From Microbacterium sp. SORGH_AS_1204 (GTDB taxonomy: Bacteria; Actinomycetota; Actinomycetes; Actinomycetales; Microbacteriaceae): a stretch of DNA of 64,000 nucleotides. Below are positions 34,978-63,533 of this stretch, piece by piece. The notes below the pieces were generated by a model. The model was not told the DNA's origin. It ran no database searches and was given only the letters and a program-made list of their open reading frames with translations. Location: positions 3,472,001-3,536,000 of the forward strand of contig NZ_JAUTBD010000001.1 of assembly GCF_030818935.1 (NCBI RefSeq), in the 5' to 3' direction. Both the position numbers and the translations under genes were made by a program. The stretch's first letter is position 1. Each line of letters starts with the position of its first letter.

Positions 34978-35961
34978 ATGCGTGAGACCACCCCGCGCGC
35001 CCCGGTCTCGTTGAGCGCTCTCGGGGATCAGCCTCGGTTGTCGGAACCGAAGCACGCCCGCCGCGCCCGCTTCCATCAGTCCTGGTACCGAGTAGTCCAG
35101 CTTGGTGTTCGTGGCTGGGGAACGACCCCTAAGGGACGACCCCTTGGCAGCATCCTGCCGCCTGCAGCTGCTGCAGCCGGCAGGAACTTCACCTCACCCG
35201 AGGCCGAGGCGATGTTCGTGAAGCGTCGGAACCTGGGCTGGGGTGTTGATCCCGTCCGGATGACCAGCCACATGACCTCAAGCCAAACGCTGCTCATGAA
35301 CCTCCTCGGACCGCTGGCCGACGATCCAGACTGGCTGCTCGAAGTCCTCCGCGTCGTGCTTGCACGGCCCAACCTGACTGAGGTGCTCGACGTCGCGGTT
35401 GAGTTCGCCCCGCCAAAGCGCAGTCATTACCTCGGCGACATGACACGGGTTGATGCCTTCGTAAAGCTTGCAGTGGAGGGTGGCATCGAGGGCCTCGTCC
35501 TGGAACTCAAGTACGCGGACAGGTTCAGCAGTCGAAGGCTGCCAGTGTCGGAGAGTCCTCGGTATCGCGACCTTGCCGAATCCACGAGCCTATGGAGATC
35601 TCCCGGCCACACCTTCTCCGACGGATCGGCAAATCAACTTGTGCGCTGCCACGCGCTCGGCGCGCGCACCCTGCAGGTTGATCTTGGAGCAACCGTACCG
35701 GTCACGCTCATGCTCGTGCACCATCCGCTCGACTTGAGCGCTGGCCCTGTCTTTGATGCGTACCGTCGCCAGCTCGCCGATCCGAAGCTCGCGACGCGGA
35801 TTGACCTTGAGCTCTTCCTCCAGACTGCGCTCGTCTCAGCTCCCAGCATCGGGCAGGCTCGAGGTATCCAGACGCTTCAACTCCGCTACGTCAGACACGA
35901 AGAGAGCGAACCTCTCTGGCACGAGCTCCTCGCGGCAACTCAACCAGCCAGGCGGAGGTGA
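34978..35961 (+). CDS. PGN_0703-like putative restriction endonuclease (PD-(D/E)XK)
   Basis: 327 residues. The order fits this family: ARRARFHQSWYR near the N-terminus, NFTSPEAEAMF, the characteristic MTSSQTLLMNLLGPL (100-113), then a PD-(D/E)XK core with Glu142 (VEFAP), Asp159 (GDMTRVDAF) and Glu176-x-Lys178 (LVLELKYAD). TAGCGT (34966-34971) ends six bases before the ATG (leaderless). Its last 22 bases overlap the end of the convergent DUF2357 nuclease gene. By context it belongs to, or borrows from, the restriction-modification cluster to its right. Confidence 0.7.
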   Translation: MRETTPRAPVSLSALGDQPRLSEPKHARRARFHQSWYRVVQLGVRGWGTTPKGRPLGSILPPAAAAAGRNFTSPEAEAMFVKRRNLGWGVDPVRMTSHMTSSQTLLMNLLGPLADDPDWLLEVLRVVLARPNLTEVLDVAVEFAPPKRSHYLGDMTRVDAFVKLAVEGGIEGLVLELKYADRFSSRRLPVSESPRYRDLAESTSLWRSPGHTFSDGSANQLVRCHALGARTLQVDLGATVPVTLMLVHHPLDLSAGPVFDAYRRQLADPKLATRIDLELFLQTALVSAPSIGQARGIQTLQLRYVRHEESEPLWHELLAATQPARRR

Positions 35962-37688
35962 CGGCCTCGGTCGTCTAGGACGGTCAACCCAAGCGACTTG
36001 AAGAGACTCGTCAGCCAGGCGCGGAGGTCCCCGTCATTGCCAGGCAGAAGGGGAAGCGCCCCGATGCCAACCTCGTCGGCGGAATCGCGCAGCTTGTAGT
36101 CCGTCGCTGGTGTCGGCCATGGAAACAGCGCCACGCCGGCCACGACTGGACGGATGGGCTCGTTCCGATCGTCGAGCACCTGGATGGCATCACGGTAACG
36201 GTGGAGCTGATTGACCGCGTCGACTGGTGCGCCCGCCGCGCCGAACTGCTTGATGTACTCGGTCGACCCATCGATGCGGTACTTGGCGTCGAGCACGATC
36301 ATGACGTCCACACCACCCGACGCCACGATGCGAAGCACGATGTCCGGCTTTTGGATGCCAGTCGGGACGTCGAACGCAGGGTTGTAGGCAAGCGCCGCCT
36401 GTACGAACTTGCCGGGGAGCTTCACCGAGCGCGAGAGCCCCTTGCGGAGTGTGAAGCGCAGGCCCGCACTGTCCGTCGGGATCAGCTCAGAGAAGTCCAC
36501 CTCGGTGCCAAGTAGTTCGGCCGTCACTTGGGCCACCTTGAGGAAGCACCACGTTTCATACAGATCGTTGAGGTCTGACGTTGAGTACTGGTCAGTGCCG
36601 TCGTCACCGGCCAGCGCAGCGCTGAGTACGGAGAGGACGCGGTACGACTGGCTGTACCCGATCGCGCTCTGAAGCTGCAGCGACGTCGCTGACGCAGGAA
36701 CGTCGATAGTGGCGGATGAGATGACCGGCGAGAGCAAGAACTGCCCAACGAGTTCCTTGAGCTCGCCGATCTCCGAAAGTTCCGCGTCGAGACGTGGTGG
36801 CCGCTTACCACTCCGCTCTACCGAGCGTTGCACCCGCGCCGCCTGCTCGGATTCGAGCTCAAGCAGTCGAGCATGGACGAACCTGAGTCGAGACCGGATC
36901 CAGCGATGCTCAAACGTATCGAGCGACTCAAAGGTGCGGGACACCTGAATCTGGGAGCGCACCGGACCAATACCCGGAACCTCTTGGAAGTTACCGAAGC
37001 CGAGTCCGCGCACTACCGCGCGCGTGGCGCCCGCACTGGGGGCACGAACTCGGTGCACGGGCGTGGCCGCGTCTTCGCGCACCAGCGTCCGCCGTGCCGA
37101 TGAGTTGATGTGCTGGATCGCCGCGTTTAGCGCGCCGAGGTGAATGCGCAGTAGGGTCAGCCATTCGATACCCGAGCCGGTCACATCGCGATTCGCCTTC
37201 GCCTGCCGATAGGTACCGCGCAGGTACTCGAGGATGAGTGTGCGGCGCACCGCTGCAACGCCCTCGAGCAGCTCCTCATAGTCCTCGACGTAGTCGATCT
37301 TCGAGGGAAACACCTCAGCCTCGATGACGAGTGTCTCTTCACCGGCGCGGAATGAAAAGTCGGTGCGCCCGACCTGCCCCCGGAAGCGCACTGTGAGTGC
37401 CAGCAGGTTTGCCTCTGCGACGGTGATGCGCTGAACGATGAGCGTTGGGTCACGAAACATGCTCACCGGCTGCACGCCGGGAAGCTTGCTACGGATGATG
37501 AGCTCGTAGTTGCGCTCCTCGAAGAGCACCGGCGTGGCCGCCGTCTCGACCGGAGAGCCGTTCAGAGTCGCCGCGAAGTGCGGCTCAACGTTCTGGTCTT
37601 CACGAGACTTGAGCGCAGCCGGAAACTCCGCCGACCCGTTGATCTCGACGGCCAGCGCGTCGGTTTCGAAGCGGGCAAGCTGGGCCAT
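35940..37688 (-). CDS. DUF2357 / McrC-like PD-(D/E)XK nuclease subunit
   Basis: 582 residues. The N-terminal 430 form a DUF2357-type region (beta-rich start, then helical; FEHRWIRSRLRFVHARLLEL). The C-terminal nuclease has Asp449 (KPDIVLRI), Asp467-Ala-Lys469 (VLDAKYRID) and the helix NQLHRYRDAIQVL, as in McrC and LlaJI R2. It starts five bases after the AAA ATPase stop, so they are co-translated. It probably acts as the cleavage subunit for the McrB-like motor. The start at 37688 was chosen for spacing; the ribosome binding site is weak. Confidence 0.8.
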   Translation of the reverse strand: MAQLARFETDALAVEINGSAEFPAALKSREDQNVEPHFAATLNGSPVETAATPVLFEERNYELIIRSKLPGVQPVSMFRDPTLIVQRITVAEANLLALTVRFRGQVGRTDFSFRAGEETLVIEAEVFPSKIDYVEDYEELLEGVAAVRRTLILEYLRGTYRQAKANRDVTGSGIEWLTLLRIHLGALNAAIQHINSSARRTLVREDAATPVHRVRAPSAGATRAVVRGLGFGNFQEVPGIGPVRSQIQVSRTFESLDTFEHRWIRSRLRFVHARLLELESEQAARVQRSVERSGKRPPRLDAELSEIGELKELVGQFLLSPVISSATIDVPASATSLQLQSAIGYSQSYRVLSVLSAALAGDDGTDQYSTSDLNDLYETWCFLKVAQVTAELLGTEVDFSELIPTDSAGLRFTLRKGLSRSVKLPGKFVQAALAYNPAFDVPTGIQKPDIVLRIVASGGVDVMIVLDAKYRIDGSTEYIKQFGAAGAPVDAVNQLHRYRDAIQVLDDRNEPIRPVVAGVALFPWPTPATDYKLRDSADEVGIGALPLLPGNDGDLRAWLTSLFKSLGLTVLDDRGRHLRLAG

Positions 37689-37693
37689 GACGA

Positions 37694-38875
37694 CTATGTC
37701 CAGTAGTTGGTGAAGCCCGTTTCGACGAGCCTGCGTTGCATGAGGTCGATGCGCTGGGCGGACACAGGGAAGGCCGAGGCGGCGCCACCGCTGGGCTGCG
37801 CCCACTCGCCGAGCTGCTTCAGCAGATTCGAGATAGTCGGTCCGGATCCCTGGATTCGTGGCAGTACTTTCATCGAGATCGCCAGGTCCAGCGGGTCGAT
37901 CTGGCCGCCCTCCATCGACTCGAACTGGTCGGGCTGCTGCTCGGCCGCCAGGACAAACATCGCAATCTCGTCGCGCACTCGGTAGCCAAAATGCAGCTGC
38001 GCGGGCTGGAGCAGATCGTTGAGCTCCGTGAGCGTCTCGATGACCCGGACGACACTCGGATCACCGCTGCGCGGATGGCCAGCAAGCGTCGCGCCCTCTC
38101 GACGCCACGCGTCCGCATGCCACTGCTGGGGTGCCGCCACCGCGCCGCCACCCCCAATCAGGCTCAGGTCAACATCCGAGAACTCGATGACGAAGGCTCG
38201 GTCGAGAACCTTCCGAGAGAACCCAAAGGTGGTCTCGTCCATGTTGACCGAGCCCACGATGGCAAGGTTGCTCGGGATGACGACCTTCCCCCACTCGTCA
38301 CCAGCGTCCTGCTTGAGAGGCGTTGCGGGTTCGTCGTCGAGCAGCACGCCGGCTTCCTCGATGCGGGACAACACCTCAGCGAAGTAGTACTCGGGACGAG
38401 CGATGTTCATCTCGTCGAGCAGGAAGAAATACTGCTTGTCCAGGTTCTCGGCTGCCTCGCGCGCGAACTGCAGGAGATGGCCCGGCTCGAAATCGCTCTT
38501 CAGGTTCTTGTACCCAAGGAGCTCACTGCTGTCGTTCCAGTCGGGACGCACCGGGACGGTCGTCGCGACGGCGCCCGTTGCATCGGCGACCAGACGCGGG
38601 AGTGCGCTCTTGCCGGTGCCCGAGACGCCGGCGAGGATGACGAACGGCTTAGTGCGAATTGCCGTGATGTACGACGCGACCTGCCACGGTGTGAAGTGGA
38701 AGCCACGCGCTTCGATATAGTCGAGCACCGCCTGGATGTCGACGGTGTCCATCACAGAGGCGACCGCGCCGGCCGGCTGGTTTACCGGCGCAGCCGCCGC
38801 CAGTGCTGCAGGCGTAGGGGCCGCAGGAAGGTAGTCGTTGACGTCGGCCACGTCGGACACAAGCGAGAGAGGCAT
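37694..38875 (-). CDS. McrB-like AAA+ (GTPase-type) motor
   Basis: 393 residues. Walker A is GVSGTGKS (83-90), Walker B FFLLDEMN (about 150-157) and the sensor/MxxD-like element GSVNMDETTFGFSRKVLDRA (208-227) contains the arginine finger region. This is the McrB/dynein-related AAA_5 subgroup, in which members use GTP or ATP to drive translocation with a McrC-type nuclease. The N-terminal 60 residues are too short for a full McrB-type DNA-binding domain, so target recognition may lie in the adjacent 206-residue protein. It sits between that gene and the nuclease gene. Confidence 0.85.
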   Translation of the reverse strand: MPLSLVSDVADVNDYLPAAPTPAALAAAAPVNQPAGAVASVMDTVDIQAVLDYIEARGFHFTPWQVASYITAIRTKPFVILAGVSGTGKSALPRLVADATGAVATTVPVRPDWNDSSELLGYKNLKSDFEPGHLLQFAREAAENLDKQYFFLLDEMNIARPEYYFAEVLSRIEEAGVLLDDEPATPLKQDAGDEWGKVVIPSNLAIVGSVNMDETTFGFSRKVLDRAFVIEFSDVDLSLIGGGGAVAAPQQWHADAWRREGATLAGHPRSGDPSVVRVIETLTELNDLLQPAQLHFGYRVRDEIAMFVLAAEQQPDQFESMEGGQIDPLDLAISMKVLPRIQGSGPTISNLLKQLGEWAQPSGGAASAFPVSAQRIDLMQRRLVETGFTNYWT

Positions 38876-38901
38876 CCTGAGCAGTTCCGATTCGTTTATG
38901 T

Positions 38902-39522
38902 CTAGATGAGCGATGAGTCGAAGAGGGCCGACTGCTCGACGTCAGTGAGTCCGTTTTCAGTTCGCAGCGTACCGACTAGGTCCGACAGTTCCACCTGCTC
39001 GGTGAACCCGAGTGTTTCGAGATCCCGCTCCCTCAACCACCAGACGGCGGTATCCGCAAGACGCGGCTTGCTGTTTCGATCAGGGTCGGTCGACGTGGCC
39101 TGCAGGAATGAACGCTCGAGATCTGGCGCCGAGCTTGGCGAGTAAACGAACGTCATCGGACGCACGTCAGGCAGACGCTTGAACGGTGGCGAACTCATGG
39201 AGCCGCCCCAACGCCCGACGGTGTCGGACGCCCCGTTCGACGGGAAGTCGCCGCTGCGGAACCCGCCATCTTGAGCGCGCACAGTCCCGAACGGGTTGAA
39301 GAAGGCTTGCGGCTGGTCGGCGGGGCGAACCTGTGCCCATTCCCGGATCGCCTGCTGGAAGAGGGGCTGCGTCTTCCCCGTCGCAACCTGAGCAGATGCA
39401 CCACCCGACAGCTCGAGCGCTCGGCGAAAGATCAAATACTCCAAGAGGCGCGTCTGCGCGCGCGATGCACGCAAGCGATCAACAGCGTGCCTTATGAGGT
39501 CGGGTGCCAAGTACAGCGCCAC
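38902..39522 (-). CDS. Unknown protein of the restriction cluster (possible specificity subunit)
   Basis: 206 residues. It begins with a helical segment (YLAPDLIRHAVDRLRASRAQ), then FFNPFGTVRAQDGGFRSGDF and SNGASDTVGRW, a stretch reminiscent of specificity modules fused to McrB-like ATPases. GTG start shares one base with the methyltransferase stop (TAGTG), and the ATPase follows 26 bases later. No catalytic motif is seen. A split-off DNA-recognition subunit is an inference from size and position. Confidence 0.6.
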   Translation of the reverse strand: MALYLAPDLIRHAVDRLRASRAQTRLLEYLIFRRALELSGGASAQVATGKTQPLFQQAIREWAQVRPADQPQAFFNPFGTVRAQDGGFRSGDFPSNGASDTVGRWGGSMSSPPFKRLPDVRPMTFVYSPSSAPDLERSFLQATSTDPDRNSKPRLADTAVWWLRERDLETLGFTEQVELSDLVGTLRTENGLTDVEQSALFDSSLI

Positions 39523-40520
39523 TAAGCCTCCTCGTCGTCACGGTCCTTAATGGCCTTCAGCCTATCGGCCGCGATATCGCAGTACTCCTCGCTGATGTCG
39601 ATACCGATCGACCGGAAGCCATGCCGCCGCGCGAAGGCCATTGTCGTTCCCGACCCATTGAACGGGTCGAGAACGACGCCGCCTGGCGGAGTCGTCGCCA
39701 AGATCGGCGTGCGCACCAAGTCTTCGGAGAACGTTGCTTTGTGGAAGGACTTCCCGCGTGCGGTGTTCGTGATCCAAGTATCGAGCGGCGGAAGGATGCT
39801 GCCCGACGGCATCTTTCGTCCCACTGGGTGCCGGTCGTAGTAGTACCAACGGTTCTTCGTCAGGTGGAAGACATACTCGTGGGACATCGACGATCGATCG
39901 CGCACCTGATCAGGGATCGGATTGGGCTTCACCCAGACGTTGTCGTTGCGAACCAGCCAGCCGTCATCCTGCAGGGCGATTGCGAGGCGGTGCGGAATGA
40001 GCAGAAGCTGTTTCGGTCGCGCCCACAGACCGTCCCCTGGACGATCCTGTGGGCGAAGCCCAAATCGCCGCGCGCCCTGCTTGATCTCGCCGCTCTTGTG
40101 GGCGCCCTTGCCGCTCCAGTAGGTGTCGCCGATGTTGACCCACAGGGAGCCTGTGTCCTTGAGCACCCGCCGACAGAGGTCGAATACTTCGACCAGCCCG
40201 TCAATGAACTGGCGCGGGTGGGCCTCAAGACCCATCTGCCCCTCTTCGCCGTAGTCGCGCTGCCCGTAGTACGGCGGCGACGTCACGATCGAGTCAACCT
40301 GGATACCCGAGTCGATGAGACGTTGAAGCTCGCCAATGACATCGCCCTTAAAGATCATCGAGCGGTCGTCAGCGTAGTAGGCCGTCTCGGGGAGCTCCCC
40401 CTCCGTGAAGAAGGTCTGAGGGGTCGCAACCGGATTGAGCGCCTGGTTCGCAGGGGTTTGCTTGAGCCGTCCACCCTCGACGGATGACCTGCTCGGCGGG
40501 AGCGGGATGATCTTCGCCAT
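39522..40520 (-). CDS. Beta-class DNA N4-cytosine/N6-adenine methyltransferase
   Basis: 332 residues. The catalytic motif IV TSPPY (80-84, within VTSPPYYGQRDYG) precedes motif I DPFNGSGTT (285-293) followed by SIGIDIS, the beta-class order. SPPY is commoner in N4-cytosine enzymes, but N6-adenine cannot be excluded. It would protect host DNA from the McrBC-like machinery encoded downstream on the same strand. Two ATGs (40529, 40520) are possible. It heads a four-gene operon. Confidence 0.9.
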   Translation of the reverse strand: MAKIIPLPPSRSSVEGGRLKQTPANQALNPVATPQTFFTEGELPETAYYADDRSMIFKGDVIGELQRLIDSGIQVDSIVTSPPYYGQRDYGEEGQMGLEAHPRQFIDGLVEVFDLCRRVLKDTGSLWVNIGDTYWSGKGAHKSGEIKQGARRFGLRPQDRPGDGLWARPKQLLLIPHRLAIALQDDGWLVRNDNVWVKPNPIPDQVRDRSSMSHEYVFHLTKNRWYYYDRHPVGRKMPSGSILPPLDTWITNTARGKSFHKATFSEDLVRTPILATTPPGGVVLDPFNGSGTTMAFARRHGFRSIGIDISEEYCDIAADRLKAIKDRDDEEA

Positions 40521-40680
40521 GTGCTGCATCAACCACAGTCTCCATCTTCGCTTGGGTGGATGGCGCCAGGCGCGCCCTTGAACGGCTCGCCAGCCGCAAG
40601 CGAGCACATTACGGCCAACCTCCGACGTTCACCTAACCGAGCCCTCACGGGGGCGCGGGCGGCCATGCCATGCTGGGCAT

Positions 40681-49841: not shown

Positions 49842-49869
49842 AGACTAGCGACTTGCAACTTGCAGTCGC
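49842..49869. promoter_or_regulatory. Promoter and operator-like inverted repeat between the envelope operon and TetR gene
   Basis: The -10 of the minus-strand operon is at 49842-49847 (TAGTCT read on that strand). Directly beside it GCGACTTGCAA (49848-49858) and TTGCAGTCGC (49860-49869) form an imperfect inverted repeat of about ten matched pairs. A TetR-type dimer bound here would block the operon promoter. Confidence 0.55.
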
Positions 49870-49953
49870 AAATGTCATCTGTCTCGGTGAGGTGTCGCGC
49901 AAGACGCGTGTCCCATGACGGCCCAAAGCTCCTGGGGCGAGAGGATGGTGTTC

Positions 49954-50757
49954 ATGCCGGACGACGCCGACGAGGACATTTGGGGCGCTGCCGCTCGGGC
50001 ACCGAGGCTCTCAAGTGATGAGTCTCGGCGCCGCGTGATGATCACGGCTGTGAAGATGCTCGAGCGCACCGGACTCACCGTCAGCTTGGAGCACCTCAAC
50101 CTTGAGAAGTTGATACGTGCTGCGGAGGTCCCACGAAGCGCCTTCTACAGACTTTGGCCAGCGAAGGATCGGTTCTTCGCGGATCTACTGGTCGAACTTG
50201 CCACTGCGTCGGAAGCGAACGACGCGATGTTCTACCCCGGGACTCAGGACGTGGCATACGGAGTTATCGACAAGTATCAGCACCTTCTCGGAACTACCGA
50301 GGGTCGTGTTGCCGTGCTGCGTGAGGTGGCACGCGTGGCAACGCGCGTCAACTTCGAGCACTTCAGCGAGTCGGTGTCCTGGCGAAGCCACGTCACGCTT
50401 GTCGCAACGGCGAGCAGCCTCGCGGACACCGAACACCGAGACCGAGTCGCTGCCGCACTGCAGGAGACGGAGCGTCGTTTCATCGAGCGGACCGCCGAGT
50501 TTTACGGCACCGCACTGGCCGGTCTCGGGTTCTCGTTCTATCCGGGTGCGTCGGCGGAGCTGCTGGCAGGCCTGGGGGCTGCTGTCGTTGAAGGTCTGGC
50601 CCAGCGGCGTCTCGTAAACCCCGACTTGGTGGACACGATGATCATGAAGCCCGGCATCGACGGCGAGCTTGTCGAATGGCACCCCGCGGCGCTGGGGTTC
50701 TGGGGCATCCTGGAGGGTCTCGTGGACGTGGAAACGCGTCGGGACTCAGATAGTTGA
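49954..50757 (+). CDS. TetR-family transcriptional regulator
   Basis: 267 residues. The N-terminal DNA-binding domain contains RRRVMITAVKMLERTGLTVS and RAAEVPRSAFYRLWPAKDRF. The long helical C-terminus would bind a ligand. The ATG at 49954 follows GAGAGG by nine bases; 49915 is an alternative. It diverges from the five-gene envelope operon and converges on the ThiF/acyltransferase operon, so it could serve either. The operator-like repeat is on the envelope-operon side. Confidence 0.85.
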   Translation: MPDDADEDIWGAAARAPRLSSDESRRRVMITAVKMLERTGLTVSLEHLNLEKLIRAAEVPRSAFYRLWPAKDRFFADLLVELATASEANDAMFYPGTQDVAYGVIDKYQHLLGTTEGRVAVLREVARVATRVNFEHFSESVSWRSHVTLVATASSLADTEHRDRVAAALQETERRFIERTAEFYGTALAGLGFSFYPGASAELLAGLGAAVVEGLAQRRLVNPDLVDTMIMKPGIDGELVEWHPAALGFWGILEGLVDVETRRDSDS

Positions 50758-50788: not shown

Positions 50789-51730
50789 TCAGTGTGCGGC
50801 GGTCGGAACTTCCTCGGCGTACGAGGCACGCGGGTTCCAGCCCAGAAGTGACCGACTCGCTAGGACGGCCGCACGCACCCAATGGTGCGCCCTCGCATAG
50901 CGCATTCGCCCCGATGCCAAGGTCATCGGGTCGCTGTAAGCCCAGTGCGGCGCGAACACCGGCGACCGACGTCGATTTCCATCACGCCGAGTCAAGTGCA
51001 ACAGCGCTTCCGTCGCACCGAGACTGACCGCCGCCTTGACGCCCTGCACGACCGACGGGAGCGGCGCACCGGCCACCGTAGCCCGGAATGTGGCGAGGTC
51101 TCCATATGAGGGGACGTAGGGCACGCAGCGACTCAGATCCGCGGTCCGGGTCGCCGCCTCTTCCAAGGTGATATCGGGCGGCAGGCCCATCACCCGCTCG
51201 AAGGTGTAGCGGCTGCTGGGCGCGAACGACGTGGCGATCGCACCGAAGCCGATGTTCATCACGAGAAGGTTGGGAACGCGATGACGGCGTGCGGCGCGAG
51301 CGAGCGCCGTCCCCACGTGCAGGTAGTGCAGCTCGGACTCATCCAACACGAGGTCGGCACCGGCAACGAACTCGTCGGCGTTGTCGACGGTGACACCGTC
51401 AGGGTAAGTGACGACCCGCGTTTCCGGGCGGATCTTGTTGATGGTCTCGCGTAGCGCTTCAACCTTGAGTCGTCCGTACGTGTCGCTGTTGGCCCAGGCG
51501 ACACGATTGGAGTTCTCGGGCACGAAGGTCTCCGGGTCCGCGATCCGGATCTCCTTCGGGCCCGCCATCATGACCAGAGCCACGGCGAGATCGAAGCCGT
51601 CCCCGCCGGCGCCCGCGATGGCGATGGTGGAATCCTGGAGAAGCTGCTGCTCGCTCCGCCGCCAGAAGCCGAGGTTTCGTCGGAACTCCGGCGGTACGGG
51701 AATCTGCTGCGCGGCCTGTTCGCGGGTCAC
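50789..51730 (-). CDS. ThiF/E1-like adenylyltransferase
   Basis: 313 residues. The nucleotide-binding loop is GAGGDG (40-45) in STIAIAGAGGDGFDLAVALV, followed by the acidic strand IRIADPETFVPENSNRVAWA and the Lys-containing helix GRLKVEALRETINKIRP, as in ThiF/MoeB/E1 enzymes that adenylate a C-terminus or carboxylate. The paired zinc cysteines and the catalytic cysteine of ubiquitin-type E1s are not seen. GTG start overlaps the acyltransferase stop (GTGA), so both are made together. Its likely job is to activate a carboxyl group in a small-molecule or protein-modification pathway with that partner. Confidence 0.78.
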   Translation of the reverse strand: MTREQAAQQIPVPPEFRRNLGFWRRSEQQLLQDSTIAIAGAGGDGFDLAVALVMMAGPKEIRIADPETFVPENSNRVAWANSDTYGRLKVEALRETINKIRPETRVVTYPDGVTVDNADEFVAGADLVLDESELHYLHVGTALARAARRHRVPNLLVMNIGFGAIATSFAPSSRYTFERVMGLPPDITLEEAATRTADLSRCVPYVPSYGDLATFRATVAGAPLPSVVQGVKAAVSLGATEALLHLTRRDGNRRRSPVFAPHWAYSDPMTLASGRMRYARAHHWVRAAVLASRSLLGWNPRASYAEEVPTAAH

Positions 51731-52449
51731 TGCTCGACCTCGCCCCAGAACCGCACGGCACCTTCCGAGACATCCAACGCGTCGATTTCAGCGAGCCCGC
51801 CAAGGTTGGCCGCCGACGCGATCGGGTCCAGCTTGATGGCGAGGTTGACGCCCTGGTACTCCTCGAGCCAGATCGGTTCCGCCACGCGGGAGACGCCGAT
51901 GCCGGCCATGCCGAGCAGACGCTCAAGCGGGCGTTCGACAATGGCGTAGACGTGATCTTCCACACCGATCCGGCGAACGTGTGCGATGGACGAACGCCAC
52001 AGCTCCTGAAGGGCCCGCATCTGGTGCTGCGGGTCGTCGAGGCGTCCGATGTAACGCGAGATCTCCGCACACCCAGCGGGCAGGTTCAGCCCGTACAGAG
52101 CGTCGGCGGGGAGCGGACGGTTGTCGGAGTGGAGGCGTTCGATCACGCGCACGCATGCCACCGCTACCGGCAGCGGGTACCGGTTCTCCAGCACCACCGT
52201 GCCGTCCGCGCGCTCATCATCGTCGTCAATGTCGACCTTGTACGTCAGCGCTTCCAGGTCCAGCATCTCGGTCTGCACAGCGTAGACGCCGGTTCGGAGG
52301 TCGAGATATGACGAGAAGATCGGGTTCGCGTGCAAGCCATATCCGAGCTCGACCGCCGCGAATCGGCTACCGGGACTGGCGTCGAACACGTTGGTTCGCA
52401 CGGAAGGGGTAATGTCCGCGTTGCGGACCCTTGTCTTTCGGGTGGCCAT
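51727..52449 (-). CDS. FeeM/LuxI-like N-acyltransferase (GNAT fold)
   Basis: 240 residues. The order fits N-acyl amino acid or acyl-homoserine-lactone synthases: an N-terminal SSYLDLRTGVYAVQTEMLDL helix region, an acidic strand-loop (DIDDDDERADGTVVL), strand 4 PVAVACVRVIERL, then CAEISRYIG and a long helix LQELWRSSIAHVRRIGVEDH, ending with a YQGVNLAIKLDP strand. GAAAGGA precedes the ATG. It heads the two-gene operon with the ThiF-like enzyme. The acyl donor and acceptor are unknown. Confidence 0.62.
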   Translation of the reverse strand: MATRKTRVRNADITPSVRTNVFDASPGSRFAAVELGYGLHANPIFSSYLDLRTGVYAVQTEMLDLEALTYKVDIDDDDERADGTVVLENRYPLPVAVACVRVIERLHSDNRPLPADALYGLNLPAGCAEISRYIGRLDDPQHQMRALQELWRSSIAHVRRIGVEDHVYAIVERPLERLLGMAGIGVSRVAEPIWLEEYQGVNLAIKLDPIASAANLGGLAEIDALDVSEGAVRFWGEVEQ

Positions 52450-56486: not shown

Positions 56487-56723
56487 GTGACCAGTCAACG
56501 AAATCCACGCCGCTACCGGAAGACACAGGGGCGACGGGTGTGGGTGTTCTCCGAACTCAACCACGACCTGCGTCCCGAACAACTCGCGAAGATCCTGACC
56601 GCTGCGGGCCTCGAACAAGCCCGTCTCGAAGTTGAAGCCCGGGCACAGAGGGAGGGATCTCCCACGGGCGTTGACAACGCAGCGGTGCACAACGAGAACG
56701 AGAACGGAGACTCGGATGTCTGA
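56487..56723 (+). CDS. Small hypothetical protein before the ATPase gene
   Basis: 78 residues from a GTG (CGGAGG upstream). Basic N-terminus (TSQRNPRRYRKTQGRRVWVF), then ELNHDLRPEQLAKILTAAGL, acidic end. It overlaps the ATPase gene by eight bases. Common as a small partner in this type of element; function unknown. Confidence 0.6.
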   Translation: MTSQRNPRRYRKTQGRRVWVFSELNHDLRPEQLAKILTAAGLEQARLEVEARAQREGSPTGVDNAAVHNENENGDSDV

Positions 56724-58863
56724 CCTCGTCTTCACGCGACTCCACCTGCCACGCCCGATAGTCTCCGCGACGGTCGAGGAACTGCTCGCACGTCTCCTGA
56801 GCGCCGACGTACCTCGTCCCGTGACCTTCGAGGTGCATGCCGCTCCGGAAGGGATCGTCCACATACTGGGGTGTGCCACCACGACCGTCCCGCAGTTGAA
56901 GCGACTTCTCCGTGACCGTGTCGCTGGAATCGGCTTCGAAGCCGTCATCCGGCCAGACGTCGTTGCGGTCAGCCGTGTCGTCGCTCATCCGAACTCGGTT
57001 CCGCTCGAAAACGTGGATCCCGAGAACCTCGTGGCGAGCCTGTATCACGCGTTGGCTGCCCGCCGCGGCGACGAGCACCTGGCGGTCCAGGTCGTCCTCA
57101 ACCAAACACACGGTGCAGTTCCCGTTCCCTTCAGTGTGGCCGATCCCTTCCAGCGGTTCGGATCGATGCTGCTAGCAGGAGTTCGCCCTGCTGCGGGCGA
57201 CACCCGAAAGCGCATCGAGGAACACGTCTCAACACCAACGGTGATGACGACGCTGCGCATCGGCGCTACCGCCGAGTCGGCAAAACGCATCCGCGCGTTG
57301 GTCTGGGAAGTCTTCGGTGCGCTGCAAGTGCTGGAAAGCAGAGGTGTGCGGTTGACCTTGAACTACGACACCACCAGTCGCTGGCGTACTGGCACACCGC
57401 GTGCGGGACTTCGCCTGTCGACCCGGGAGCTTCTCCCGCTATTGGGCTGGCCGCTCGGCGACCGAGACTACGCGGGTGTTCCCGGCGTCCATCCTCGACG
57501 TCTGGCCGTGGCTGAGATCGTCAGCCGTACCGCCTCCGTCTTCGCGGTCGGGACTGCACCTGGGCCGGAACGCGTGATCGGGATCGACACGAAGAGTCGC
57601 CTTCAGCACATGGTGACCATCGGGCCAACCGGCTCAGGAAAATCCACGTTGCTGGAGCATCTCATCCTCTCGGATATCCGTGCGGGCCGGCCCTGCGTCG
57701 TCATCGAGCCGAAGAAGCAGCTGGTGGACTCCGTCCTCGACGCCCTGCGTCCGAAGGATGCCGAGAAGGTCGTCGTGCTCGACGCCTCTGACATGAGTAC
57801 GCCAGTCGGATTCAACCCACTCGATGTCGGCGATCGAGATCCCGACATCGTCGTCGACGGCATCGTCGCCGCGCTGGCGGCAACCTTCGGAGATGGGTGG
57901 GGACCGCGCACGGAGTACCTCATTCACGGCGCGCTTCTCTCCCTCGCGCGGGCGGGCGTGAAGCGAACCGAGCCGTACACCCTCATCGATCTCCCGAGGC
58001 TGTTGACCGACACCGCGTTCCGCAGACCAGTAATCGCCGCCGTCCAAGACGACCTGACGTTGGCCGCCTTCTGGGCAGAGTTCGAGGATCTTCGACCCGG
58101 TGCCCGGGCTGCGCAGATCGCCGCCCCACTCAACAAGCTCCGAAAGATCCTGATGCGCAAGCCGCTCGTCGCCGTTCTGGGGCAAGCGCGCCCGCGATTT
58201 CGGTTGCGTGACATCTTCCGGGAACGGATGAACGTCCTCGTGCCGCTCAACGAAGCGCTGGTCGGCAGTGGTGCATCCAGGCTGCTCGGCAGCCTCATCG
58301 TGGCCGAGATCTTCATGGCCACGATCGAACGCGCCACCGAGAAGAACCCGGAGAGACGCCCGGGATTCGTGTTCATTGACGAAGTCCAGAACTACCTCCA
58401 CTTGCCGACGTCGGTGGGTGAAGCGATGAGTGTCTTCCGCTCGTACGGCGTCGGTCTGACCGTTGCGCACCAGCACCGAGGGCAACTCCCTCCGAGCATG
58501 CGGCAAGACTTCGACGTCAACGCTCGCAGCAAGGTCGTGTTCAGCCTCGAGGCCGACGACGCCAGAGACCTCGCCCGTCAGGCACCCCACCTCACGGCTG
58601 AGGACTTCCAAGCGTTGCCGCAATACGAGATCTATGCGCGCCTCATCGCGGGCGGCATCCCGACCCCCTGGTGCTCTGCCCGCACTCTCGAACCGGCCGA
58701 ACGCGTCGGAAGACGCCGCGAGATTCGAGACCTCAGCCGCGCTCGCTACGGCTCACTGCATTCCGACGTCGTTCACACGCCCACCGTTGCCACGCCGCCG
58801 GCTGAAGGCTCAGAGCACGCGGCTTCAAGCCGTTCGTCACATCAGAAGGCGAGACGCTCATGA
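56716..58863 (+). CDS. HerA/VirB4-like type IV secretion ATPase
   Basis: 715 residues. After an N-terminal region of about 280 residues the motor domain has Walker A GPTGSGKST (about 303-311), VVLDASDMSTPVGFNPLDVG, and Walker B FVFIDEVQNYL (about 550-560), with the sensor region SMRQDFDVNARSKVVFSLEA. This is the DUF87/HerA-FtsK family used by conjugative elements to drive DNA or protein transfer. It is followed by genes for a small protein and a replication-relaxation protein. It probably powers DNA transfer of this element. Confidence 0.88.
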   Translation: MSDLVFTRLHLPRPIVSATVEELLARLLSADVPRPVTFEVHAAPEGIVHILGCATTTVPQLKRLLRDRVAGIGFEAVIRPDVVAVSRVVAHPNSVPLENVDPENLVASLYHALAARRGDEHLAVQVVLNQTHGAVPVPFSVADPFQRFGSMLLAGVRPAAGDTRKRIEEHVSTPTVMTTLRIGATAESAKRIRALVWEVFGALQVLESRGVRLTLNYDTTSRWRTGTPRAGLRLSTRELLPLLGWPLGDRDYAGVPGVHPRRLAVAEIVSRTASVFAVGTAPGPERVIGIDTKSRLQHMVTIGPTGSGKSTLLEHLILSDIRAGRPCVVIEPKKQLVDSVLDALRPKDAEKVVVLDASDMSTPVGFNPLDVGDRDPDIVVDGIVAALAATFGDGWGPRTEYLIHGALLSLARAGVKRTEPYTLIDLPRLLTDTAFRRPVIAAVQDDLTLAAFWAEFEDLRPGARAAQIAAPLNKLRKILMRKPLVAVLGQARPRFRLRDIFRERMNVLVPLNEALVGSGASRLLGSLIVAEIFMATIERATEKNPERRPGFVFIDEVQNYLHLPTSVGEAMSVFRSYGVGLTVAHQHRGQLPPSMRQDFDVNARSKVVFSLEADDARDLARQAPHLTAEDFQALPQYEIYARLIAGGIPTPWCSARTLEPAERVGRRREIRDLSRARYGSLHSDVVHTPTVATPPAEGSEHAASSRSSHQKARRS

Positions 58864-60189: not shown

Positions 60190-60356
60190 CCGGCGATGGG
60201 CAACGCCTCGCGCCGGCTATACGAGGTGAAAACTACATCGACCCGGCGACGGGGGCAGGATTCCCTGAACTGCCCGTCGAAGCGGCCGACGGACTGGACT
60301 TCCGCGGCCGAACGAGCGTTAATCCGGAGGATCTAACCGATGGAGGGCACTTATGA
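60186..60356 (+). CDS. Small hypothetical protein
   Basis: 56 residues from a GTG overlapping the previous stop, and its own stop overlaps the recombinase start. Contains YIDPATGAGFPELPVEAADG. No family recognised; the tight coupling on both sides supports it as a real gene. Confidence 0.5.
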   Translation: MTGDGQRLAPAIRGENYIDPATGAGFPELPVEAADGLDFRGRTSVNPEDLTDGGHL

Positions 60357-62110
60357 ACACGCAACCCGCGACCAACCAACGAGTATTCGAGGGCGCACCG
60401 CCACCGTTGCAGTCACCTGCTCCGATCGCCATGGACGACGAGATCGACTCACTCATCGAGGCGAACACGTTCGCCGCAGTCGACGCACCCCCGGGGACAC
60501 GCGCCGTCGTCTATGTGCGCGTTTCCAGCAAAGGTCAGCTGAACACTGACTACGACCCGGAAGGCATCTCCATCCCGGCGCAGCGCGCCGCCTGCACCCG
60601 TAAAGCAGACCAGCTGGGGCTGACCGTGATCGGCGAGTACGTCGAGCCTGGACGCTCGGCGACCGAGATGACCAAGCGGGTCGCGTTCCAGCAGATGCTC
60701 GAGCGGATCCGTCGTGAGCGGGACGTGGACTACGTCATCGTTCACAAACTGTCGCGCTTTGCCCGCAACCGTCTCGACGACGCGATCGTCATGGCCGACC
60801 TCAAGAAGCGTGGCGTTACGTTGATCTCCGCGACCGAGCAGATCGACAACACGCCCGAAGGCCAGCTGATGCACGGCATCCTGGCGACCTTCAATCAATA
60901 CCGGTCGGCGGCCGATGGGGCCGACATCGCCTACAAGATGGGGCAGAAAGCCAAGACAGGCGGCACGCTGGGGCGCGCGCCCATCGGCTACCTCAACACG
61001 CTGGACCGCGTCGACGGACGCGAGATCCGCTCCGTCGCCATCGATCCCGAACGCGCCCCGTTCGTCAAACTCGCATTCGAGCTGTACGCCTCAGGCACCT
61101 ACACCCTCGACGACATCACGACCGAGCTCGCCGACCGTGGGCTGAGGTCACGTCCCACCGCCACGCGCCCCGCCGCACCCATCGTCGTCTCGAAGGTGCA
61201 GCGCCTCCTGCGCGACCGTTACTACCTGGGCGAGATCGAGTACAAGGGTGAGACGTACGACGGACGACACGAACCGCTGATCGACCCCGAACTCTTCGAG
61301 AAAGTGCAGACGCTCCTCGACGCCCGGAACAAGTCCGGCGAACGGCGCATCAAGAACGACCACTACCTGAAGGGCACGATCTGGTGCGGACGCTGCCGAC
61401 TCGAAGACCACGTCATCAAGCGCATGATCCTTATGCGCGCCACCGGGCGAAACGGCGGCGAGTACGCCTACTTCTTCTGCCGCGGGGTCCAGGATCACAC
61501 CTGCGATGCACCCTACTCAAACGTCGAGCGAGTCGAGCGTGCTATCGAGGCGCACTACAAGACCATTCGACTCTCGGGCGAATTCATCGCCGCCGTGAAA
61601 GAGCGTCTGGAAGCGGCGATCGCGGACAAGGCCCGCGCCGAACAATTGCTCCGACAGCAGCTGGAGACCCAGCTCCGTCAACTCGCCGTGAAGGAAGAGA
61701 ACCTCATCGACCTGGCCGCCGACGGTGAGCTGCCGACCGCCCGGATCAAGGTCAAGCTGCATGAGATCGGCCGTACCCGCACCAAGCTGACGGCACAGCT
61801 CGACACGGTCGAACTCGACCTGTCGGGAGGCCTCGCGTACATCAACGCGCATCTCGAACTGCTCGCCGATCCGCAGGAGCTGTACCGCCGAGCCTCAGAC
61901 GAGATGCGCCGGCAACTGAACCAGGCGTTCTTCGGCCGGATCTACGTCGTCAACGACGAAGTCATCGGCGATGAGCTGACGTCGCCATTGGTCGAACTCT
62001 TGGCCGCTGAACGCGGCTGGACGGCCCTACAAGCCGGACAGAGCCTCGAAACGGCCATGGTTGGGGCGAAGGCCGAGGAGGCCCGTAGAAGGCTTATAGG
62101 CCAGAAATAG
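60353..62110 (+). CDS. Large serine recombinase, 3' end interrupted by an IS
   Basis: 585 residues as it stands. The resolvase domain has the catalytic serine in VVYVRVSSKGQ, ARNRLDD and FNQYRS motifs. The recombinase and zinc-ribbon domains follow (LRDRYYLGEIEYKGETYDGR; WCGRCR...FFCRGVQDHTC), then a coiled coil. The last six residues (RLIGQK) and the stop come from the IS left terminal repeat. The natural tail of 48 residues continues at 63339 beyond the IS, so the intact protein would be 627 residues. It catalyses integration and excision of the element; whether the truncated form works is unknown. Confidence 0.9.
   Translation: MNTQPATNQRVFEGAPPPLQSPAPIAMDDEIDSLIEANTFAAVDAPPGTRAVVYVRVSSKGQLNTDYDPEGISIPAQRAACTRKADQLGLTVIGEYVEPGRSATEMTKRVAFQQMLERIRRERDVDYVIVHKLSRFARNRLDDAIVMADLKKRGVTLISATEQIDNTPEGQLMHGILATFNQYRSAADGADIAYKMGQKAKTGGTLGRAPIGYLNTLDRVDGREIRSVAIDPERAPFVKLAFELYASGTYTLDDITTELADRGLRSRPTATRPAAPIVVSKVQRLLRDRYYLGEIEYKGETYDGRHEPLIDPELFEKVQTLLDARNKSGERRIKNDHYLKGTIWCGRCRLEDHVIKRMILMRATGRNGGEYAYFFCRGVQDHTCDAPYSNVERVERAIEAHYKTIRLSGEFIAAVKERLEAAIADKARAEQLLRQQLETQLRQLAVKEENLIDLAADGELPTARIKVKLHEIGRTRTKLTAQLDTVELDLSGGLAYINAHLELLADPQELYRRASDEMRRQLNQAFFGRIYVVNDEVIGDELTSPLVELLAAERGWTALQAGQSLETAMVGAKAEEARRRLIGQK
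62083..62090. repeat. Target-site duplication, left copy
   Basis: CCGTAGAA directly before the IS; the same 8 bases recur at 63331-63338 directly after it. Confidence 0.92.
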
Positions 62111-63330
62111 TGGATGGAACCTCGATCTAGCCGCGTGATTCCGCGGTGAAACGGGGATTGGTATGGTCCGCGACCCTTAGTCGTGGACCTTCCCTCGAAT
62201 CAGGGCTCGTGCGTGGTATGCGGGTCGAAGCTGGTGAAGAACGGCCGGCATCCCTCGGGGACGCAGCGGTGGCGGTGCCGGTCGTGCGGGTCCTCCAGCG
62301 TCCGTCGGCGGCCCGACGTCACCCGCCGCGAACAGTTGCACCGGTTCCTGACCTGGCTGATGGGCAAGGCCTCACAGGCCGAGCTCGCCGGCGCCCGCAG
62401 CGCCCGCTCCTTCCGGCGCGATACCGCCTGGTGCTGGGACCTCGAACCACGCCTGCCTGTTACAGGCGAAGTACACGAGGTGATCCTGGTCGATGGGATC
62501 TGGATCGAAACGTGGTGCCTGCTGATTGCCCTCACCACCACCAACACCGTCGTGGGATGGCAGTGGGCAGCCCGCGAATCCGCTGCTGCGTGGGGCGCGC
62601 TGTTCGAGAGCATCCCGGCGCCGACGGTGGTGGTCACCGACGGGGGTTCCGGAATCCGTTCCGCTCTCGCCCTACACTGGCCCGAAGCGGCCATCCAACG
62701 CTGCATCTTCCACCTCCAACTGAACGTCACCCGCGAACTGACAAGGAACCCGCGCCTACGCGCCGGCAAAGACCTGCGCCAAATCGCCCTCACCCTCAGC
62801 AGCATCCACACCGTCGACGACGCCATCACCTGGCGCCTCACGCTGGAAGCCTGGTGGAAGACCCACGGGCACCTCCTGCGCGAGCGCACCCTCTACGACA
62901 ACGGCCACTTCGGTTACACCCACAAACCGCTCCGCAAAGCCTGGGCGATCTTGCACCGCGTCGCCGAGAACGAACACTATGTTCACTTTCGTCCGCCATG
63001 ACGCCCCGCGCACCACCTCACGCCTCGAAGGACTCAACTCCCAGATCAGGCACCTGCTCCGCCATCACCGCGGCATGCCGATCCCGCATCAACGCCGCGC
63101 CGTCGAATGGTTCCTCCTGCTGCACGAAGTCCCCATCGACCACGCCCACACATACGCCCACGCCCCCGCAACACACACGCTGAAAGCCGACTCCACCGTC
63201 GAACTCCAGGACCCGACCCCAGTCCTCTACGACAAGGGCCTCGACGCCTCAGAAGGCCTCTGGCTCAGAACAGGATGGGCAGGACGAGGATGACACGCCC
63301 GACCCATCCACTATTTCTGGCCTATAAGCC
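62091..63330 (+). mobile_element. IS1249/IS256-like insertion sequence (1,240 bp)
   Basis: Bounded by perfect 27 bp inverted repeats (62091-62117 and 63304-63330; outer bases GGCTTATAGGCCAGAAATAG) and flanked by the 8 bp duplication CCGTAGAA. One transposase in two frames fills it. Eight-base duplications are typical of the IS256 family. It lies inside the 3' end of the serine recombinase gene in the same direction and supplies that gene's new stop codon in its left repeat. Confidence 0.92.
62183..63293 (+). CDS. IS1249-type transposase in two overlapping frames (frameshifted)
   Basis: Frame 1 covers 62183-63001 (272 residues): zinc ribbon CVVCGSKLVKNG...WRCRSCG, then a DDE core with LVDGIWIE (first Asp), VVVTDGGSGIRSAL (second Asp) and CIFHLQLNVTREL. 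The rest, VRHDAPRTTSRLEGLNSQIR to the end, is in the +1 frame (62979-63293) and contains the conserved glutamate region. The two frames join at TTT-C in CACTTTCGT (about 62987). This may be an inactivating one-base change or a +1 programmed shift. GTG start; it is uncertain. Confidence 0.85.
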
Positions 63331-63338: not shown

Positions 63339-63484
63339 GCCCGGAAACAGCCGAAAAGGCCACCCCGAAGGGTGACCTTTTCGTTGGAACCGTAGGAGAC
63401 CTGCTCACTGCCCTGCAAAGCCAGGGTGATTGCAGTAAGCCTCCTATGGTGCGCGAGGGGGGACTTGAACCCCCACGCCCGTGA
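63339..63484 (+). pseudogene. Displaced 3' end of the serine recombinase gene
   Basis: When the IS and one duplication are removed the recombinase frame runs AGA-A/GC-CCG and continues SPETAEKATPKGDLFVGTVG to EGGLEPPRP, then stops at 63482-63484 inside the tRNA gene. GGLEPPRP is the known read-out of the antisense 3' part of a tRNA-Leu and marks a gene formed by integration at a tRNA. Confidence 0.85.
63354..63381 (+). terminator. Hairpin with T-run at the end of the recombinase gene
   Basis: AAAAGGCCACCC (63354-63365) pairs with GGGTGACCTTTT (63370-63381) with one mismatch. The hairpin is inside the original recombinase tail, about 100 bases before its stop, so it would act before translation ended unless coupled to it. 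Confidence 0.6.
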
Positions 63485-63533
63485 AGGCACTGGCACCTGA
63501 AGCCAGCGCGTCTACCTATTCCGCCACTCGCGC
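63447..63533 (-). tRNA. tRNA-Leu (anticodon CAG)
   Basis: 87 nt including encoded CCA. Acceptor GCGCGAG/CTCGCGC; anticodon arm CTGGC-TTCAGGT-GCCAG gives anticodon CAG; a variable arm is present; T-arm GGGGGTTCAAGTCCCCC. It is complete. The neighbourhood (tRNA-Leu beside fhaA) matches that in other actinobacteria, so this marks the return to chromosome and the probable attachment site of the island. Confidence 0.96.

Follow-up and report, generated by a model that had tools for sequence, protein, structure and literature searches.

A LuxI-superfamily N-acyltransferase paired with a ThiF/E1-like adenylating enzyme in Microbacterium and other bacteria: a regulator-linked candidate pathway for cyclic N-acyl amino acid derivatives

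The 64,000-nucleotide stretch of the Microbacterium sp. SORGH_AS_1204 genome analyzed here (NCBI RefSeq assembly GCF_030818935.1, contig NZ_JAUTBD010000001.1, positions 3,472,001 to 3,536,000; hereafter the window) encodes two overlapping genes, one for an N-acyltransferase (NAT) that by modelled fold and conserved residues is a member of the LuxI superfamily, and the other for a ThiF/E1-like protein that is probably capable of adenylation. The pair recurs in actinobacteria and in candidate-phylum bacteria, where it is linked to genes for regulators or sensors. By analogy with characterized pathways we consider it reasonably likely that N-acylation of an amino acid followed by ATP-driven ring closure yields a cyclic N-acyl amino acid derivative; the gene context further suggests a signalling role for this product, for and against which we see the odds as even. 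The elements of the locus are:

51727..52449, minus strand: NAT, a LuxI/FeeM-type N-acyltransferase of 240 aa with an ATG start, the upstream gene of the pair (AlphaFold model and homologue alignment)
50789..51730, minus strand: predicted E1/ThiF-like adenylating cyclase of 313 aa with a GTG start, the downstream gene of the pair (Pfam ThiF match and model)
49915-50757, plus strand: TetR-family regulator, convergent with the ThiF gene and separated from its stop codon by 31 bp (Pfam matches below the cut-off)
49853..49871, strand not applicable: low-confidence candidate TetR operator, an imperfect 8-3-8 inverted repeat with one mismatch in the tetR promoter

Both open reading frames of the pair lie where a first-pass annotation, made from the sequence alone, had placed them, coupled by the GTGA overlap that it described, and the presence of an adenylating enzyme next to an acyltransferase is confirmed. 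The host genome is a single 3.7-Mb contig, elsewhere in which the window ThiF has two weak matches (2.8e-7 and 7.3e-7). The annotation had also remarked on the lack of nearby genes for thiamine, molybdenum cofactor or sulfur-carrier synthesis; this holds for the 18 window proteins scanned against Pfam, the remaining window reading frames not having been scanned, and a PEP-CTERM gene is likewise absent from those 18. Neither, as it had stated, is a LuxR-type gene seen adjoining the pair.

The AlphaFold model of the NAT (predicted local distance difference test score, pLDDT, 93.8) recovered only N-acyl-homoserine lactone (AHL) synthases among its top 12 PDB chains in a Foldseek search. In VIA-align comparisons it gave Z-scores of 18.7 with TofI, 18.2 with LasI, 17.9 with RpaI, 17.1 with BjaI, 16.1 with MesI and 15.1 with FeeM, and of at most 14.9 with the generic GNATs among those listed. 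A profile of 31 NAT homologues retrieved AHL synthases from the PDB, namely BjaI (1.8e-8), TofI (1.9e-8), EsaI (3e-5), RpaI (4e-5) and LasI (0.002). LuxI-type enzymes are characterized by a conserved set comprising an Arg, two Asp, a further Arg and a Glu-x-Ser-Arg motif. The residues invariant across the 31 homologues are R52, Y56, D75, D78, R101, E129, S131 and R132, and R52, D75, D78, R101, E129, S131 and R132, aligned with BjaI and TofI, make up the LuxI set. Judged by its modelled fold and these residues, the NAT is thus a LuxI-superfamily acyltransferase; the FeeM/LuxI-like label of the first-pass annotation stands, a match to a non-acyltransferase fold having been sought and not found. 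AHL synthases additionally possess an invariant Trp in the region of the S-adenosylmethionine (SAM) pocket. In the printed alignments the column with this Trp in BjaI and TofI contains Met in the window protein and other residues in its homologues. As this Trp is not kept, the NAT possibly uses something other than SAM as its amine substrate; a true AHL synthase was set aside on the same ground.

The ThiF-like protein matches the Pfam ThiF family (PF00899) above the cut-off with an E-value of 3.3e-20, and its model has a pLDDT of 90.8. The closest solved structure is that of AclA from Tenacibaculum discolor (9egb; Foldseek 1.2e-14, Z 26.8), followed by ThiF (25.0), MoeB (24.8), MccB (23.5) and PaaA (22.4). 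Going by its name and the title of the PDB entries (9egb-9egd), we take AclA to be the cyclase of the N-acyl-cyclolysine (ACL) signalling system reportedly described by Linares-Otoya et al. in 2025. Across 32 homologues of the window protein the glycine loop (G40, G42, G43, G45), D65, the N73xN75R76 motif and K89 are invariant, D130 and E131 are nearly so, and there is no invariant or nearly invariant Cys, the catalytic and zinc-binding Cys of canonical ThiF, MoeB and E1 enzymes being unconserved. Given that the adenylation residues are invariant and no Cys is conserved, the protein is predicted to be competent for adenylation, as the first-pass annotation proposed, without the conserved Cys of sulfur or thioester chemistry. 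Cyclization by TrzS, a ThiF-oxidase fusion discussed below, is described as depending on Asp217 in its ThiF motif (PMC12856293); its probable counterpart in the window protein is D130, which is nearly invariant.

The association of the two genes is strongly conserved. With the NAT as query, ten other loci were identified among 249 genomes of the family, in all of which (10/10) a ThiF gene with 45-52% identity adjoins the NAT gene, with overlaps of 1 or 4 nt in eight. A search of named genomes with the ThiF yielded 148 relatives, of which 80 were kept, 47 of them close (L025-L071) and 33 more distant (L072-L104). The NAT lies directly upstream of the ThiF in all 47 close loci, although the contig of L048 ends within the NAT and one NAT of L026 is divided between two frames; the two sets of loci share some genomes and are not independent. 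The close loci comprise 33 from Actinomycetota, including Microbacterium sp. T32 (89% ThiF identity), Leucobacter, Herbiconiux, Agreia, Cryobacterium, Rathayibacter and others, 12 from Saccharibacteria, one from Uhrbacteria, and one from Acetobacterium dehalogenans, which has two sets. In six saccharibacterial loci (L060, L065, L066, L068, L069, L071) NAT and ThiF are joined in one reading frame of about 550 codons. Among the more distant loci a NAT was found within 4 kb of the ThiF in 17 of 33. Searches across the phylum (profile A2) and the order (profile A4) recovered 2/396 and 2/386 genomes respectively, with the own genome counted in each, and a scan of Patescibacteria found a NAT match in 9 of 379 genomes; within short flanks a ThiF is seen beside it in six of the nine, the order being reversed in two, and was not found in the other three. 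Given the adjacency in 10/10 and 47/47 loci, the overlaps and the six fusions, the pairing exceeds chance and a functional coupling is supported, so that the coupling proposed by the first-pass annotation has recurrence and fusions in its favour, and its own suggestion of looking for the same pair in other genomes has been answered positively. The Acetobacterium dehalogenans locus (L026, 8313-17657) has several acyltransferase genes side by side with two ThiF genes, and FtsX/ABC exporter genes adjoin them.

The convergent TetR gene just beyond the pair, which the first-pass annotation had put forward as a possible receptor, is its usual companion. The window protein itself has sub-threshold Pfam matches (TetR_C_6, 0.0024; TetR_N, 0.043). 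Homologues are encoded divergently upstream of the NAT in nine of the ten family loci, and a TetR of the same profile occurs in 30 of the 33 actinobacterial loci (29 divergent and L025 convergent, the L048 locus being truncated where its contig stops); the 14 non-actinobacterial loci of this second set have none. Four other genomes of the genus with the pair encode a TetR 73-87% identical to that of the window, which is convergent behind the ThiF in all five genus loci; in L131 a flavodoxin-like gene sits between the two. The regulator therefore probably belongs to the same unit as the pair. Two of the genus genomes also encode a protein of 1313-1318 aa with a weak STAND/AAA ATPase match just upstream of the NAT (L132, 5259-9215; L134, 3556-7497), and unlinked TetR paralogues occur in pair-carrying genomes at L135 6722-7465, L136 6676-7407 and L137 6724-7461. 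As for operators, an inverted repeat like that of the window is present upstream of tetR in L133 and partly in L132. In nine Herbiconiux loci (L041, L044, L047, L049, L050, L057, L059, L061, L063) tetR is immediately preceded by a palindrome of TTGGGAC-n5-GTCCCAA form, a likely operator, and a TTGGTAC..GTACCAA form is visible by eye in the tetR-NAT intergenic region of L036. Nothing resembling the Herbiconiux palindrome lies beside the window genes, whose own repeat is weak, and an operator common to the loci was rejected. A 390-aa neighbor of the c8 cluster, in L059, has no Pfam family.

The linkage extends to other types of sensors. In 18 of the 33 loci from Actinomycetota the TetR is joined by a gene of the GGDEF-EAL cluster (domains confirmed for one member), whose products have several hydrophobic segments in a crude scan of eight members; in Agreia there are intervening response-regulator genes, and some other loci contain a HATPase kinase gene. 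In all 13 candidate-phylum loci, i.e. the 12 from Saccharibacteria and that from Uhrbacteria, a gene of a histidine-kinase cluster, whose product has a multi-transmembrane N-terminus, follows the ThiF directly on the same strand with a spacing of -29 to +83 nt. Two of these kinases were scanned against Pfam and display the architectures HisKA_7TM-GAF-HisKA-HATPase (the 7TM match falling slightly under the cut-off) and HisKA-HATPase. Receivers of a CheY cluster (two proteins checked) are encoded upstream in 11 of the 13. Since eight of these genomes have 5 to 11 HisKA matches each, placement of the kinase beside the pair by chance is unlikely, though the loci are related. As in systems of the quorum-sensing type, the putative synthase is linked to a regulator or sensor, the TetR in 30/33 and the kinase in 13/13 loci.

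Saccharibacteria are known as epibionts of Actinobacteria. Eight pair-carrying saccharibacterial genomes (L027, L030, L031, L062, L066, L067, L068, L071), had no detectable acyl carrier protein (ACP; PF00550) or CoaE (0/8 each, against 11/14 and 10/14 in controls), whereas a ninth genome tested, from Bacteroidota, had a PF00550 match. A thioester supply of their own appears doubtful in these Saccharibacteria, making the acyl donor a puzzle; because neither ACP nor CoaE was detected in the eight, an acyl-adenylate route or scavenged coenzyme A (CoA) could serve instead.

The general chemistry predicted for the pair is already known from oxazolones and N-acyl-cyclolysines, and in this respect the first-pass annotation, which had spoken of an undescribed system and a new product class, went too far. 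The oxazolone pathways OxzAB, TyzACB and TrzAS likewise consist of adjacent genes for an N-acyltransferase and a ThiF-like cyclase. According to the accounts in PMC10404671 and PMC12856293, TyzA acylates Tyr or Phe with lauroyl-CoA, whereupon TyzB cyclizes the product with ATP; TrzA acylates Trp using acyl-CoA, and TrzS then cyclizes and desaturates it, OxzAB acting alike. The acylation of the amino acid and subsequent ATP-dependent ring closure were measured for TyzA/TyzB and TrzA/TrzS and are proposed here. A passage in PMC12856293 places trzAS beside cyclic di-GMP genes, to be compared with the GGDEF-EAL-cluster genes in many actinobacterial loci of the window family, and stieleriacine loci are described as holding the same gene types (PMC12479983). 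The oxazolone pathways differ in having a flavin-dependent oxidase, either fused or adjacent. An oxidase profile built from five ThiF fusions, two of which were confirmed as belonging to the nitroreductase family, had no match in the 47 close loci (some on short contigs) or in the window, and matched 13 of the 33 more distant loci, its five source loci included. An oxazolone pathway of the Oxz/Tyz/Trz type was accordingly not assigned to the window. The oxidase-linked ThiFs, drawn from L072-L104, also fall in tree groups separate from the window clade, OxzB, TyzB and TrzS themselves not being in the tree. For the terms searched, the main texts of PMC10404671 and PMC12856293 have no mention of an oxidase-free clade, of TetR or kinase partners, or of Leucobacter, Microbacteri- or Saccharibacteria. 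A literature search retrieved nothing pertinent on ThiF with an autoinducer synthase or a PEP-CTERM acyltransferase or, among the matches listed, on Saccharibacteria quorum-sensing kinases. What appears new, as set against those main texts, is a regulator-linked, oxidase-free clade.

N-acyl-cyclolysine signalling in Bacteroidota is a reported signal class, as cited in a review (PMC13419125). AclA is a stand-alone ThiF-like enzyme with 19% identity to the window ThiF in the structural alignment. Its homologues, found in 9 of 247 Bacteroidota genomes at 1e-15, form a clade of their own (10 rows, support 1.0) that is distinct from that of the window, in a tree with weak deep branches and root. 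In eight of the nine loci the NAT profile finds nothing within flanks of about 1.5 kb, and in the ninth it has a 5e-4 match; inspection by eye shows an acyltransferase-like and a regulator-like reading frame beside the homologue in L116. The LuxI-type AHL synthases TofI, LasI, BjaI and RpaI, together with FeeM, share with the NAT a common fold and the conserved positions enumerated above; their SAM chemistry would be replaced in the window pair by the ATP-using partner. A further resemblance is to the PEP-CTERM/exosortase acyltransferase (TIGR03694) found with a PRK08223-type ThiF, and all 31 NAT homologues match TIGR03694 at an E-value of 0.01 or better. In Alkalimonas (L076) one of the more distant acyltransferase-ThiF pairs adjoins the genes for PrsT of the PEP-CTERM system and for PrsK, a kinase whose N-terminus is multi-transmembrane, and PrsK could be a receptor for the product of that pair. 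The kinase cluster is also represented in L077 and L078.

In a focused phylogenetic tree the ThiFs of the window and Microbacterium T32 lie on a long branch, which calls for caution over long-branch effects, among sequences from Saccharibacteria, Acetobacterium and Microbacteriaceae. Because the actinobacterial rows need at least three label changes on well-supported branches, exchange of the pair between phyla is likely.

We propose that the NAT acylates the amine of an amino acid, with acyl-CoA or acyl-ACP as the donor, and that the ThiF-like enzyme then spends ATP to adenylate the carboxylate of the resulting N-acyl amino acid. An internal nucleophile, either the oxygen of the amide or an amine or hydroxyl group of the side chain, would displace AMP to give an oxazolone, lactam or lactone, and the ring would stay saturated since no flavin oxidase is found. 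The product would be a diffusible, AHL-like molecule, with ATP taking the role that the sulfonium leaving group of SAM has in LuxI. Most likely the adjacent TetR would bind this product and control the pair, as the gene context suggests, and in Saccharibacteria the membrane histidine kinases would sense it. These suggestions can be extended to a form of quorum sensing in Actinomycetota and candidate phyla that parallels that of LuxI but is driven by ATP. One family of signal synthases, with the domains fused in some, would then be common to Microbacteriaceae, where a TetR reads the signal, and to Saccharibacteria, where membrane histidine kinases do so. The eight Saccharibacteria with no detected ACP or CoaE would make the signal with acyl donors taken from the host or by passing on an acyl-adenylate directly, movement of the genes between phyla would allow cross-talk of host and epibiont, and PrsK-type kinases of PEP-CTERM bacteria would be receptors of a like molecule. 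Taken as a whole, this extended picture is rather unlikely.

Several observations weigh against the proposed synthesis and signalling roles. The window NAT remains under the cut-off of Pfam Autoind_synth (E-value 0.018) and, at 7e-5 and 22.3 bits, far under the curated cut-off of 111.95 for exosort_acyl (TIGR03694); EsaI, itself an AHL synthase, fits the model with a Z of 14.6 and so does not surpass some generic GNATs (14.9). The distribution is sparse, with the NAT in 11 of the 249 family genomes and the pair in 5 of 295 genomes of the genus (profile A4), the own genome included in both counts. The window ThiF falls outside the AclA clade, and because AclA is the closest fold but a separate clade by sequence, a lactam and an oxazolone both stay in contention. 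Finally, eight of the ten other genomes searched contain unlinked TetR paralogues, which are up to 43% identical to the window TetR, compared with 28-34% for the linked divergent ones; this weakens the case for a TetR dedicated to the pair.

Among the alternatives, the one nearest to our proposal retains its chemistry and differs in the role of the product, which would be a membrane or stress lipid with the TetR merely tuning expression. Such a role has been considered for mycobacterial oxazolones in PMC12856293, where higher amounts of tryptazolones are reported inside cells and the function of oxazolones is left unresolved, and the lack of a visible LuxR-type gene beside the window pair fits it too. 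Repeated linkage to differing sensor types across phyla would be unusual for a housekeeping lipid, and trzAS also adjoins cyclic di-GMP genes (PMC12856293), leaving a lipid role somewhat unlikely, if worth keeping in view. Alternatively the order of reactions might be reversed, with the ThiF adenylating a free carboxylic acid and handing the acyl-AMP to the NAT, which would then need no CoA or ACP thioester; an N-acyl amine without ring closure would result. The doubtful thioester supply of the saccharibacterial carriers, with ACP and CoaE at 0/8, speaks for such direct transfer, and the NAT-ThiF fusions fit it. Absence from draft genomes is nevertheless weak evidence, CoA could be scavenged, and TyzA and TrzA, as described in PMC12856293 and PMC10404671, use acyl-CoA, with TyzB and TrzS acting after them; we regard this order as improbable. 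The structural closeness of ThiF and MoeB (Z 25.0 and 24.8) might also suggest a canonical E1 of the sulfur-carrier or ubiquitin-like kind that happens to lie next to a GNAT with an unrelated acetylation target. This reading is largely refuted by the recurrence of the pair and can be given hardly any credence. A thiamine, molybdenum cofactor or ubiquitin-like role is rejected on account of the unconserved Cys and the constant NAT partner, the six fusions argue against an accidental neighbor, and the NAT fits five AHL synthases (Z 16.1-18.7, with EsaI at 14.6) better than any generic GNAT listed. We therefore consider the interpretation in the first-pass annotation to be partly supported, and retain N-acylation followed by ring closure as the preferred chemistry.

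The pair resides in a region of the window with lower third-position GC content (mostly 0.6-0.8, compared with about 0.9 in the first 22 kb). Further features of this region are:

56632-58863: type IV secretion system (T4SS) coupling protein
60353-62110: serine recombinase
62183-63001: Mutator/MULE-type transposase
63447-63533: tRNA-Leu
roughly 31500-63550, the left edge being a guess: probable integrative element, suggested by lower third-position GC, the T4SS coupling protein, recombinase, transposase and tRNA-Leu

Given the low third-position GC, the T4SS coupling protein, the recombinase, the transposase and the tRNA-Leu at the end, an integrative element probably carries the pair, with which its sporadic distribution is consistent. 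Carriage by a plasmid or virus was set aside, there being no plasmid match at 1e-20 and, among the matches listed, a single weak viral contig with 35% identity over query residues 36-107. At 35940-40607 the window also has a defence-like module with genes in a row for a DUF2357/PDDEXK_7 protein, an AAA_5 protein that is presumably McrB-like, an unassigned reading frame and an N6_N4 DNA methylase.

Pathways combining an acyltransferase with a ThiF-like enzyme are only now being recognized, and PMC12856293 describes the function of those in mycobacteria as unresolved. The regulators linked to the pair in the window clade make a signalling hypothesis directly testable, and the product is a candidate ligand class for membrane kinases of the PrsK type. 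The recurrence of the pair beside sensors in actinobacteria and Saccharibacteria suggests a family of chemical signals that has received little study, and possibly a language common to both.

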